Notes under the pieces: model-generated
Databases searched by the model: none
The model's input: the letters and a program-made list of their open reading frames with translations, nothing else
What the model was told of the DNA's origin: nothing
Shown here: piece after piece, positions 25,931 through 30,668 of the stretch
Numbering within the stretch: the first letter of the stretch is position 1
How the letters are laid out: each line of letters opens with the position of its first letter
Translations under genes and position numbers: made by a program
Assembly (NCBI GenBank): GCA_017984435.1
Contig: JAGNZK010000003.1
Span: forward strand, 46,798-110,797
From: Nitrosomonas sp.
Lineage (GTDB): Bacteria > Pseudomonadota > Gammaproteobacteria > Burkholderiales > Nitrosomonadaceae
DNA: 64,000 nt
Reading direction: 5' to 3'

Positions 25931-26623
25931 ATGACTGAGCAATCTCACATAAAAATCCGCGTACTGGTAGCAGAGAGCTTTGAGCTTGTACGTATGGGTT
26001 TGCGTGTATTGTTTGAAAATCATCCGACCATACGCTTGGTTGCGGAAACCAATTGCATCGAAGATTTATTTGGTTTGGCCGTGCAACATAAACCGGACGT
26101 GGTTCTCGTTGACTTACAATTAAACAACGGTAATTGTGCCGAATATATTCCCAAGTTGCTGAATGTTTGTCCAAAAAGTAAAGTGCTGGCTTTTTCCCAT
26201 CACAATAGTGAGCATACGTATTTGCAAACATTTCGTTCAGGAGCGGTCGGTATTATCAGCAAACACCATTCTTCCGAATTGCTATTGAAAGCCATTTATG
26301 CGATTCACGCAGGCCAAGTTTGGTTTGATCGCAGTATTACCAAGTTGTTATGGCAAGCGCAGTTTGATGCTGCTGTAGTGCCGGAAATACAAACCGATAC
26401 CCAAGCATCGTATCAATCAAAGTTGAGTGATGGCGAACGTCAAATTGCCTATCTGGCATGTCGAGGTTTATCCGCTAAAGAGATAAGCGCGCAATTATTT
26501 ATTGCGGAGAAAACCGTACGCAATCAGTTGTCAATCATTTATAAGAAGATTGGCGTCAAGAAACAGATTGAGCTATGCCTGCAAGCTCCTCTATATGATT
26601 ACTTTGAAGATTCAAATTCGTAG
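25931..26623 (+). CDS. LuxR/NarL-type response regulator
   Basis: Protein of 230 residues with an N-terminal receiver domain (about 9-122) and a C-terminal LuxR-type helix-turn-helix (about 163-225: LSDGERQIAYLACRGLSAKE, then VRNQLSIIYKKIG). The likely phosphoacceptor D61 (VVLVDLQL), S89 and K111 are present. The acidic pair that normally binds Mg2+ near residues 15-16 reads E-S rather than D-D, so phosphorylation may be weakened or lost. No histidine kinase lies nearby. It precedes the multicopper oxidase pair by about 245 bases on the same strand, and a relic copy lies upstream; control of the oxidase genes is an inference from position. Confidence 0.85.
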   Translation: MTEQSHIKIRVLVAESFELVRMGLRVLFENHPTIRLVAETNCIEDLFGLAVQHKPDVVLVDLQLNNGNCAEYIPKLLNVCPKSKVLAFSHHNSEHTYLQTFRSGAVGIISKHHSSELLLKAIYAIHAGQVWFDRSITKLLWQAQFDAAVVPEIQTDTQASYQSKLSDGERQIAYLACRGLSAKEISAQLFIAEKTVRNQLSIIYKKIGVKKQIELCLQAPLYDYFEDSNS

Positions 26624-26869: not shown

Positions 26870-27871
26870 ATGTCGTTTCAGCCTAGCCAACTTGGTTACA
26901 TCATGGCGTTTCCCAAGAGCATTGATGCTACGCCATATACGTCACACAATGCTTTATTCAGGCGGTTATTCATAGCATTTTTTCTCATATTGACGTCATC
27001 TTTATTACTGATTGGCAAGAGTGATGCTGCAGAGCATATTATTCGATTAACAACAGAAGAAACCCGGGATGATGGGTTTGGCAACAAACTGCTGGCCTAC
27101 AAGATGTTAGGCCATGTGGTGGATGGCGTGGATATTACAGATCATTATAGTGCGGTAGCGACAATTCCCGGGCCAACAATCTTGTTAACCGAAGGTGACA
27201 CGGTTAAGCTGACTATTCTGAATGAAATCCCCGGTAATGCCTCCGCGGTTGCAGGTATCAGCAAGCAAGTCAGCGTGCATGTTCATGGTGTTCACTACAA
27301 CATCCTCAGCGATGGTACGCTCAAAGTAATCAACAATCAGCTTGATGAGGGAGCGGGGGCCGGACCGGAAGATACTTTCGCATTCTATGAATATGAATGG
27401 AATGTTGCACCGGGAACTGCGGGTACCTGGCCATATCATGATCATAATTTTGAGAGTCATAACGGTTCGGAAAATAAAGGGCTTTTTGGTGCAATCATTG
27501 TTAATCCGATCGGTTCTCCCAGCTTTGCCAAAGAGTATGTGCTCTATCTGGGTGACGACGCTTTCTGGGGGATGGAAATCGATGGAATTACCAAAAAACA
27601 ATCCAAGCATGGTGTCAATCCGCCACTGGCTGCTCTAAAAAACAGCGATGTCCGCTTTCATCTGATTGCTATGGGTACTGACATCCACAAGTTTGTGCTG
27701 AATGGTTATCAGTGGTTCGATCCGGGAACGCATAACCTTATTAATCAAGTCGCAATTGGTCCGCTTGAGAAGCATGTATTTACTGTCAAAGCGAAACAAA
27801 GTACACGCTATATGGATAACCACCTGTCCAATAAGTTAATGGGCATGGCAGGTAAATTTAATGTGCAGTAA
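26870..27871 (+). CDS. Two-domain multicopper oxidase-like protein, keeps only domain-1 copper ligands
   Basis: Exported cupredoxin protein of 333 residues. The start is at ATG 26870, nine bases after a strong AAGGAGG; a TATAAT at 26703-26708 is a possible -10. A hydrophobic segment (about 33-50) followed by KSDAA is a late signal peptide or anchor. Domain 1 has HVHGVH (137-142) and YHDH (H190, H192), four trinuclear-cluster histidines. In domain 2 the expected H-x2-H-x-H reads HKFVLN (273-278) and the expected HCH...H...M reads MDN...N...M (315-326), so all four cluster histidines and the type-1 Cys are gone. It overlaps no longer frame of worth and is followed 34 bases later by its partner. 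Alone it cannot build a trinuclear site. Confidence 0.85.
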   Translation: MSFQPSQLGYIMAFPKSIDATPYTSHNALFRRLFIAFFLILTSSLLLIGKSDAAEHIIRLTTEETRDDGFGNKLLAYKMLGHVVDGVDITDHYSAVATIPGPTILLTEGDTVKLTILNEIPGNASAVAGISKQVSVHVHGVHYNILSDGTLKVINNQLDEGAGAGPEDTFAFYEYEWNVAPGTAGTWPYHDHNFESHNGSENKGLFGAIIVNPIGSPSFAKEYVLYLGDDAFWGMEIDGITKKQSKHGVNPPLAALKNSDVRFHLIAMGTDIHKFVLNGYQWFDPGTHNLINQVAIGPLEKHVFTVKAKQSTRYMDNHLSNKLMGMAGKFNVQ

Positions 27872-27905
27872 ACAAGCGGATAAGCATACAGAAGATAAGG
27901 ATAAC

Positions 27906-30668
27906 ATGATGAACAAAAAGAATATTCCTGGATTAAGAAATCCAGCCTCAATGCTGACGGTTTTGATACTGTTTGCTGTGATGTTTCTGATATCACCAAT
28001 GGCATGGGCAGCAACGCATTATTTTACACTGACCGCTAAAACCTTACCTAACGGTCAATTAGGCTATGCATTGGGTGGCACCGAAGGTGGCAGCGATGCA
28101 GAAGCTGCCATTCCCGGTCCGGCACTATTTGTAAAGCAGGGCGATGTGGTGAGTGTGACACTTTTTAATGATACCGCATCCGAAGTGGGTTTTAAGGTGC
28201 CCGGTCTAAAAAACAAGAACACTACGAGAACGCGTCCGGGACAAGTTCAAAAGTATACGGTTCAGGCGAATAAAGCGGGCACGTATGTGTACCATGGCGA
28301 TGGAAAAGAGCTCCTGGGTTTGTTTGGTGCACTGGTTGTCGATAAGGCCAATGGTCCGATTGACAGCTATGTTGATGATAATGGCAGCATTATTCCAGTC
28401 ACAAAAGCGAATTTGGATAAACAATTCGTTTTGTTCATGGTCGGTTCAACTTTCTGGGGAACCGAGATATCCGGTGACGGTACACAGCAAAAACCGTTAT
28501 GGACCAATCCAAACCTGGGTGCCATAGAGAATGATATTGTTCGTTTTCATATTCTGTCCGTGGGACCCGGCCATACATTCCATTTGCACGCGCATCGCTG
28601 GCTTAAAACCGGAACAAATACGGTCATCGATACTAAATTACTGGACGAAGGCTCGGATACCCATACATTTACCATCAAAGCAGGCAGCGGTGTGGGTGCC
28701 GGAGATTGGCAATATCATTGCCACTTGTTTGCCCATATGGAAGCAGGCATGCACGGCAGTTTCAGAGTTGATCCAATGGGTGGTAGCGGTGTCAGTATTG
28801 CAGGTGCATCCCCTTACGGCAGAATTTTACTGGGTACGAAAGACGAACCCGGTCTGGTAACTTTTAAAGTATCCGACGAACCTGCCAGCTGGTTTAGAAG
28901 CGCGCGTGGTGATGCGATTGTTGGATTGCCTTACGACATTAAAACAAAATCCCTGGAAGTGATGTCTCCGGGCAGTAGTGTCCACTTCATCATGTCTGAC
29001 ACCAATGCCGTGCACACCATCAGCTCTCTGTTATGGCCTACGGGCGCGCATCACATGCCTTTCGATCAAACCGATGCTTATCGGGGCGGCGCGATTGTGA
29101 AATTGGATACGCCGGGACTGTATGTATTTACTTGTAAAGTACATCCTTACATGTTCGGTGCGGTTATTGTTGATGATCCTAATACGGAAGGGTTGGATCT
29201 GGGGAATCCGGAGGCTGACTATAAAATTGATCTGGTGACCGGTATCAAAGGTTTACCGACCAGTAGTGATCTTGCCATCCGTTTGCTGAAAACATTCTTC
29301 ATTGCCACTTCACCAAGTAACTGGCAGGATTATTCATCCGGTCTGTGGAATGTCAGATTTCCTACGCTGCCTGTTAGAATTTCAGGAACGCCATTCGGCA
29401 ATATCGTTGATGGTGGACTGGCGGCGCCGCTGACGATTCTGAATGTGAATAATCAAGCGCTTTCGACACCTGTTCCTCCGACGACACCTGGCGTCGGAGA
29501 GGTTTGGGTCAATACCCAGTTTGAGAAAACTGCCGGTAAATACAAACCGGGTACCACAACTGTGATTGATGCGACCAATTGGACAGTTAAACGCAAAGTT
29601 GCGTTGCCTCACATCAACAACAATAATCCGCATAACATGTGGTCTAATCGGGATCAATCGGTTATTTATCAAACACAATGGTTTGATAACAAATTCACGA
29701 TGATTAATCGTGAAAATGGCAAATTAATCAAAAATATTAAAGTGGGGTATTCACCTTCTCATGTGGTGACATTACCGACTACGGATGATATTACAATCGC
29801 GATCAACGGCGAGAATGGTATCTCTGTCATTCCGGTGGGCACCACAAGGGTCACCAAAATGATGCCGACGCAGGCGCATGGACATATCTCCGCTAATCCG
29901 CATGGTCATTGGATTAGCGCCGATGGTTCCAAAATCGTGACACCTAACATCAACACCAATGATATCGGGATTTATAACGCCGCCGATGGCGATATACAGG
30001 CTCGCACGCCAACAGGACAAAATGCGCCCGGCGCTCATCCGATTGCAATTGGCATGATGCCGGATTCCAGCAAAATTTACGCCGCCAATCTGCTACATCA
30101 CACGCTCAGTGTGGTGAATGGTAATACCGGCGCATTGATGAAAACCATCAATCTCATTGCCGATTATAATCCGATCAACGGATCGTTTGCAGACAATGAT
30201 GGTAATGGAAAAATTGCTGTTGGCGTACTGCCAATTCAATCGCCTGTTTCTCCGGATGGTAAAGCAGTGGTAATTGCCTCAACGGGTGGACAGATTGTCA
30301 TTGTCGATACAGCGACTGACACCATTGTCAAATCGCTGGATTGCGACCCGGGTTGCCACGGCGCTAACTTTGGTGCGAAACAAGGTGGCGGTTATTATGC
30401 TTATGTCACGAGCAAATTTGGTAACAGACTTACTGTCGTAGATATCGACCCGAATGGAGATGGCGATATAAAGGATGCAGACATCGTTGGCTATGTTTCT
30501 TTGGTTGACAGCGAAGATACCGCTAAAGATGATACCGTTGTTGGCTTGCCAGGATTTGGTGGTCAGGGAGTACTGGCTGTTCCGAATGTCTATAATGGCT
30601 GGGTACAAAACCTTCCTGCAATTTGGAAAAATGATCTGACTGCTGCACAGCAAAATCCAATAGACTAA
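27906..30668 (+). CDS. Multicopper oxidase-like protein with extra blue-copper domain and beta-propeller, keeps only domain-2 ligands
   Basis: Exported protein of 920 residues. Starts at 27906 or 27909 follow an AAGG; an in-frame start at 27861 would overlap the previous gene. Signal peptide cleavage is probable after MAWA. Cupredoxin domain 1 has lost the cluster motif (KVPG at 97-100 in place of HxHG; YHGD in place of YHDH). Domain 2 is canonical: HTFHLHAH (223-230) and HCHLFAHMEAGM (271-282), giving type-1 and half of the trinuclear ligands. A third cupredoxin follows with H370 and C410, H413, M416 (FTCKVHPYM), a plastocyanin-like site. The last ~400 residues form a YVTN-type beta-propeller with repeated His-containing blade starts. 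A terminator follows. A role as an exported oxidase or electron-transfer complex with the preceding protein is inferred. Confidence 0.85.
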   Translation: MMNKKNIPGLRNPASMLTVLILFAVMFLISPMAWAATHYFTLTAKTLPNGQLGYALGGTEGGSDAEAAIPGPALFVKQGDVVSVTLFNDTASEVGFKVPGLKNKNTTRTRPGQVQKYTVQANKAGTYVYHGDGKELLGLFGALVVDKANGPIDSYVDDNGSIIPVTKANLDKQFVLFMVGSTFWGTEISGDGTQQKPLWTNPNLGAIENDIVRFHILSVGPGHTFHLHAHRWLKTGTNTVIDTKLLDEGSDTHTFTIKAGSGVGAGDWQYHCHLFAHMEAGMHGSFRVDPMGGSGVSIAGASPYGRILLGTKDEPGLVTFKVSDEPASWFRSARGDAIVGLPYDIKTKSLEVMSPGSSVHFIMSDTNAVHTISSLLWPTGAHHMPFDQTDAYRGGAIVKLDTPGLYVFTCKVHPYMFGAVIVDDPNTEGLDLGNPEADYKIDLVTGIKGLPTSSDLAIRLLKTFFIATSPSNWQDYSSGLWNVRFPTLPVRISGTPFGNIVDGGLAAPLTILNVNNQALSTPVPPTTPGVGEVWVNTQFEKTAGKYKPGTTTVIDATNWTVKRKVALPHINNNNPHNMWSNRDQSVIYQTQWFDNKFTMINRENGKLIKNIKVGYSPSHVVTLPTTDDITIAINGENGISVIPVGTTRVTKMMPTQAHGHISANPHGHWISADGSKIVTPNINTNDIGIYNAADGDIQARTPTGQNAPGAHPIAIGMMPDSSKIYAANLLHHTLSVVNGNTGALMKTINLIADYNPINGSFADNDGNGKIAVGVLPIQSPVSPDGKAVVIASTGGQIVIVDTATDTIVKSLDCDPGCHGANFGAKQGGGYYAYVTSKFGNRLTVVDIDPNGDGDIKDADIVGYVSLVDSEDTAKDDTVVGLPGFGGQGVLAVPNVYNGWVQNLPAIWKNDLTAAQQNPID

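Follow-up and report, generated by a model that had tools for sequence, protein, structure and literature searches.

Complementary loss of copper ligands in two adjacent Nitrosomonas genes that very probably encode one divided multicopper oxidase

Two adjacent genes in a 64,000-nucleotide stretch of a Nitrosomonas sp. contig (JAGNZK010000003.1; hereafter the window, part of a draft genome of 2.80 Mb in 85 contigs) very probably encode partner chains of a single periplasmic multicopper oxidase that share a trinuclear copper cluster, in a pair probably derived from an intact two-domain oxidase gene (type M) and a gene for a cupredoxin-propeller protein. The genes, named A (26870..27871, + strand, as are all features below) and B (27909..30668), lie head to tail with overlapping open frames, and both encode secreted proteins. 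A is a two-domain multicopper-oxidase homologue with a live domain 1 (D1) and a dead domain 2 (D2), the latter without cluster ligands and without the type-1 Cys ligand; B consists of a dead D1, a live D2, a further cupredoxin domain (D3) and a seven-bladed propeller.

Ligand distribution in A and B

The closest solved relatives of A and of B were small, two-domain laccases, and the two-cupredoxin arrangement of these enzymes was present in each protein. A matched Cu-oxidase_3, and B matched Cu-oxidase_3, Cu-oxidase_2 and a lactonase/YncE-type propeller. With two cupredoxins in A and three in B, neither is a six-cupredoxin single chain of the ceruloplasmin type. A ribosome-binding-like sequence (aaggagg, read by eye) was located directly 5' of the ATG of A, and the frame of B was open from 27840, a start at 27861 or 27906 instead of 27909 being possible.

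Relatives were collected from loci of the same genus and from one genome per species; the latter set yielded 178 candidate stretches and 99 relatives, of which the best 80 were kept (79 distinct loci). After removal of identical sequences, the ligands were aligned in 69 distinct A (>300 aa), 66 distinct B (>800 aa) and 12 intact relatives M. In D1 of A, HVHGVH (27278..27295) and HDH (27437..27445) each contribute two cluster histidines, and all four positions were His in 69/69 A. In D2 of A, HKFVLNGYQW (27686..27715) replaced HTFHLHxHRW, in which the first His, an old type-1 ligand, was retained and both cluster His were gone, and YMDNHLSNKLMGM (27809..27847) replaced YHCHxxxHMxxGM, with the cluster His and the type-1 Cys gone, the Met retained and the preceding loop shorter. 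The opposite distribution was observed in B. In D1, GFKVPGLK (28188..28211) replaced (S)(I/V/L)HVHGVH, the cluster His being gone and about 13 following residues deleted, and GTYVYHGDG (28278..28304) replaced GTWxYHDH, where a single His remains in 40/66 B. In D2, HTFHLHAH (28572..28595) contains the type-1 His1 and two cluster His, all present in 66/66 B, and HCHLFAHMEAGM (28716..28751) contains two cluster His, the type-1 Cys, His2 and Met.

Scored over the four D1 cluster positions, His was found in 69/69 A at each, compared with 0/66, 0/66, 40/66 and 0/66 in B; over the four D2 positions, it was found in 66/66 B at each, compared with 0/69, 0/69, 0/69 and 1/69 in A. The sole D2 cluster His in A belonged to locus L029 and was located in a Y-E-D-H loop without Cys. 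The type-1 Cys of D2 was present in 66/66 B and in none of the 69 A. The type-1 His2 and Met of B were scored in 64/66, because two rows were trimmed at 345 residues, and the motif was complete in both. All twelve ligands were present in 12/12 M. In this way, the eight cluster His and the type-1 site were obtained only when A and B were pooled and were not contained in one chain of either kind. An earlier note on this DNA had located HVHGVH, HDH, HTFHLHAH and HCHLFAHMEAGM at the same coordinates and had read the four His in D1 of A, V, N, M and N at the D2 cluster positions of A with Asp at the type-1 Cys, and K, P and D at three of four D1 positions of B. All of this agreed with the sequence, and the fourth position in B is His (order K, P, H, D). 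Its sum of one full set of eight His plus one type-1 site held for the His set, but a second type-1 site is present in D3 of B.

The complementary ligand loss is more than chance, because the live-half and dead-half counts hold across 69 A and 66 B. It is extremely improbable that the genes are decaying pseudogenes or an annotation artefact. Frame breaks occurred at four loci (L027, L044, L051 and L094), mostly in draft or metagenome assemblies, but nearly all loci had full-length open frames, mean identity within the family was 59% for D2 of A and 56% for D1 of B, and the ligands of the live halves were invariant in the A/B alignment, on which ground this reading was rejected. The loops around the lost sites were deleted in each dead half. 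At the old type-1 positions in D2 of A, His1 was kept in 62/69, the axial Met in 66/69, and Asp occupied the old Cys position in 60/69; this H/D/M trio may be a constrained leftover or another site.

Intact relatives and the origin of the pair

The type M relatives are single two-domain oxidase genes with every ligand, found at ten loci of methanotrophs or gammaproteobacteria (L127-L134, L136 and L137) and at two of archaeal ammonia oxidisers (L135 and L138). In eight further M genes all His and Cys motifs were present. A separate cupredoxin-propeller gene followed M at 9/10 bacterial loci of the one-genome-per-species set, L132 being counted on the basis of an overlap, and at 8/8 further M loci; at L136 only a short unmatched open reading frame followed, and the two archaeal loci had no cupredoxin-propeller gene after M. 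The cupredoxin-propeller protein was a homologue of the C-terminal two thirds of B. A is therefore the counterpart of M, and B unites the counterparts of M and of the cupredoxin-propeller protein in one chain. The methanotroph system (L127-L134, L137 and L161-L168) has the same gene order and is homologous over the full length of A and B, but has one intact oxidase gene, an unfused cupredoxin-propeller gene and unsplit ligands. To our knowledge, this system has neither a name nor a study devoted to it.

Compared with methanotroph M, the mean identity of A was 50.6% in D1 and 35.3% in D2, whereas that of B was 35.2% in D1 and 50.2% in D2. Among M-conserved positions, those kept only in A numbered 33 in D1 versus 8 in D2, and those kept only in B numbered 25 in D2 versus 5 in D1 (p 1.5e-7). 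In a midpoint-rooted tree of 90 rows (44 A, 38 B and 8 M; broken L044, L051, L088 and L124 and near-identical rows left out), A formed one group and B another, each with 100/100 support, and M lay between them without forming one clade (2 changes). Probably, an M gene was duplicated, the second copy was fused to the neighbouring cupredoxin-propeller gene, and each copy then lost the half of the site that the other retained. This is the simplest history; since the M sequences do not group as a single clade and the tree has a midpoint root, the direction of evolution is drawn from the intact M genes and the gene order rather than from a rooted tree.

The third cupredoxin of B, the propeller and the M-type single-gene relatives all go beyond the earlier note. 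D3 carries a second type-1 motif (VHTISS ... FTCKVHPYM, 29010..29159), whose type-1 His, Cys and His were present in 82/82 B and cupredoxin-propeller proteins. The C-terminal part of B is a seven-bladed propeller of the YVTN/YncE type (29478..30632). Five nearly invariant His were noticed in it, at 29631, 29760, 29901, 29907 and 30357 (in PHNMW, PSHV, PHGHW with two, and GCHG), each present in 81 or 82 of the 82 proteins; perhaps they form a further metal site.

A stand-alone cupredoxin-propeller protein of 611 aa is encoded elsewhere in the window's genome (locus L139, 6966-8798; G000:C18:23968-25704), no oxidase gene was found within the 16 kb examined around it, and similar stand-alone genes were found in many genomes of the family. 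Genes for secreted proteins with GIGGTG-type repeats lie near such genes (L139, 10299-12041; L140, 3591-5429). Four proteins of about 1000 aa from the same genus (L055-L058) were considered as a fused ancestor and rejected. They are single chains with both multicopper-oxidase halves and a cupredoxin between them, and L055 has a Kelch/galactose-oxidase-like C-terminal part; they belong to a different family, because the match to A is limited to D1, B is not matched, and the Kelch domains of L055 are glyoxal/galactose-oxidase-like.

Co-occurrence, linkage and distribution

The family was represented by 126 genomes from four genera; A was found in 73 of them and B in 74, and 73/73 genomes with A also had B. 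Some genomes contained two or three pairs, giving 81 copies each of A and B. For 93/100 split-type A rows, B followed on the same strand with a gap between open frames of -39 to +187 nt; the remaining 7 rows were accounted for by four loci with a contig end, a disrupted copy or a frame-broken B. Pairwise distances among A correlated with those among B (r 0.92, 62 pairs), compared with 0.16 for the best of 999 permutations. The agreement extended to the two pairs of genome G002 (L041 + L042; L049), for each of which A and B fell among matching relatives in the tree. Thus, the arrangement of a heteromeric split oxidase, two linked genes with complementary halves that always occur together, was found. 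The earlier note had proposed a survey for adjacent pairs with complementary ligand loss, and had named homologues commonly occurring apart as evidence against its proposal; the survey bore out the former (73/73 genomes, with the pattern in 69/69 A and 66/66 B), and the latter did not occur. A and B often share one frame with a single stop codon between them (L067, L034, L042, L054, L070, L104, L118, L123, L125 and others), which places a fusion by stop loss one step away.

It is very improbable that A or B completes its site with another intact oxidase encoded elsewhere, a possibility which the earlier note had also raised against itself. Four further Cu-oxidase_3 matches were present in the window's genome, but one is the nitrite reductase NirK (L003, 471 bits with TIGR02376, cut-off 296, below which A and B fell with 13.9 and 35.2 bits), and the other three (L001, L004 and L006) have complete-looking motifs of their own, as judged by eye. 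No intact type-B two-domain oxidase was found among these four multicopper proteins of the window's genome, and M-type genes were listed in 0/126 genomes of the family; the reading was rejected on both counts.

Beyond the family, A matches among 399 genomes of the order were limited to nine, all from the family that carries A and B. Among 369 genomes of the class, B matches were found in four, namely two Nitrosomonas with pairs, and G187 and G414 with M and a cupredoxin-propeller gene. In one methanotroph family, 12/121 genomes were matched. The pair was also found in three metagenome-assembled genomes (MAGs), possibly due to mis-binning: L105, named Chromatiales, L119, named Pseudomonadales, and L102, named Nitrospirae, where a contig end follows A and B is missing. 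Copper monooxygenase (PF02461) was detected in 8/16 and 9/11 genomes tested. The genomes without a match to it included N. europaea and the window's own draft, both of which presumably have it, two archaea, three sponge-type MAGs, G158, G164, and G187, a complete-looking genome that carries M. Archaeal amoA is perhaps outside the coverage of PF02461. Because such genomes are among the misses, the link of A/B and their relatives to organisms with copper monooxygenase is suggestive and not strict.

The genes flanking A/B varied among loci. Directly upstream of A in the window lies a gene for a NarL/LuxR-type response regulator (25931..26623; family named by eye), a possible regulator of A/B. A homologue on the same strand was found upstream of A at 33/59 distinct A loci with 2 kb of upstream sequence; the association was weaker in Nitrosospira and Nitrosovibrio and absent at the N. 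europaea locus (L100). In phage-infected N. europaea, two multicopper oxidase genes were up by log2 6.16 and 6.14 according to PMC13356812. If these two genes are A and B of L100, such closely similar increases would agree with an A-B operon.

The proposed enzyme and known systems

Since A lacks one half of the cluster, B lacks the other, and neither half is useful alone, a shared cluster is the likeliest mechanism. The trinuclear cluster would lie between D1 of A, with four His, and D2 of B, with four His, and would be fed by the type-1 copper in D2 of B. Electrons would enter through the type-1 sites in D2 and D3 of B, perhaps from a substrate or a partner docked on the propeller, and pass to the cluster, where O2 would be reduced; D3 and the propeller would serve as parts for electron entry or docking. 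If the ring of six cupredoxins known from small laccases is kept, the simplest assembly would join three two-domain units, as A2B or AB2, and only one of the three interfaces would be live. The physical assembly, the loading with copper, the electron path and O2 as oxidant are parts of a model that we infer from these comparisons.

Several observations weigh against this proposal. G095 contains a B fragment without A, and the match begins 287 bases into its contig. A was absent from 53/126 genomes of the family, which indicates that the system is dispensable. Congruent trees and adjacency are not proof of contact, because related genes share history, and the contact between A and B is deduced from sequence. 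Given the His and Met kept at its old type-1 positions, D2 of A might bind something itself. A fold of A and B read through as one chain (16 rows) had a predicted local distance difference test (pLDDT) score of 70, below 50 in the copper loops, and a predicted template modelling score (pTM) of 0.62; against ceruloplasmin this low-confidence fold gave a template modelling (TM) score of 0.2-0.3 and a root-mean-square deviation of about 20 Å, and the expected ring was not seen. By E-value, a sequence-like ranking, the best Foldseek matches of this chain were ceruloplasmin, hephaestin and bacterial six-domain oxidases (MnxG), and ceruloplasmin was not among the 50 matches listed for superposition of the A and B halves.

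In a rival reading the two proteins work separately, A as a copper or metal binder through its four D1 His and B as an electron carrier or copper binder, with independent losses by coincidence. B has two complete type-1 sites and could carry electrons alone, A keeps the constrained trio in its dead domain, and the interaction is indirectly derived. However, the D2 cluster His of B, invariant in 66/66, would be superfluous for a lone electron carrier, the D1 His of A, invariant in 69/69, would form half a cluster that is useless alone, and the pairing was strict (73/73 genomes), which makes separate functions improbable. The heteromer of A and B is strongly, though indirectly, supported by these comparisons.

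The earlier note had proposed obligate partners that alternate in a heteromer. Two partners sharing one trinuclear site are supported by the fixed ligand loss, the adjacency, the co-occurrence, the intact single-gene relatives and the lack of an intact type-B oxidase among the four other multicopper proteins found in the window's genome, but the alternation is not, because a six-domain ring takes three two-domain chains, in which A and B cannot alternate. A ring with a single composite cluster, like that of ceruloplasmin, is a better fit than an alternating one. The pair may also be real and assemble otherwise, for example as a closed AB heterodimer or as a bigger ring with an even number of chains, in which active and dead interfaces take turns in line with the earlier note's proposal. 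This is unlikely: the A+B fold is unlike ceruloplasmin, but both halves superpose on small-laccase subunits, whose two-cupredoxin fold builds three-chain rings, and three chains cannot alternate.

The chemistry and the fold proposed for A and B are known from other oxidases. Small laccases form homotrimeric rings of three chains with six cupredoxins. Their cluster lies where domain 1 of one chain meets domain 2 of the next, as described in PMC3192119. The fold of these type-B two-domain oxidases (Streptomyces SLAC, 3cg8) is that of A and B, and the motifs are the same once pooled; SLAC differs in having both halves in every chain and one kind of chain, compared with one half per gene and an extra cupredoxin and propeller in B. 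In ceruloplasmin, a six-domain ring, one of three ancestral clusters remains, according to PMC3600357. The dead interfaces proposed for A/B would have their counterparts there, with the difference that A and B are separate chains that could be swapped; ceruloplasmin, hephaestin and MnxG are each one chain. MnxEFG and the heterodimeric fungal laccases resemble A/B in having more than one kind of subunit. In both, a single subunit houses the whole cluster, and the other does not supply half of the site. NirK, encoded in the same genome, has two cupredoxin domains and binds copper where two chains meet, as proposed for A/B, and A differs from it in having no type-1 Cys in domain 1. The earlier note knew of no described system of this kind, and the open-licence text of PubMed Central, as far as it was searched, yielded no account of a bacterial multicopper oxidase that is split or heteromeric like A/B; one cluster divided over two paralogous, linked genes thus appears to be undescribed in the searchable literature.

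Surveys based on single-chain motifs, which would call such a protein a laccase or dismiss it as degenerate, would miss enzymes like A/B. If the proposal is true, the pair would be an exceptionally clear natural example of one active site shared out between the products of a gene duplication. Other lineages still have the undivided form, which would allow each step in the origin of an obligate heteromer to be tested. It would also be a conserved and apparently unnamed copper oxidase in bacteria that perform the first step of nitrification.

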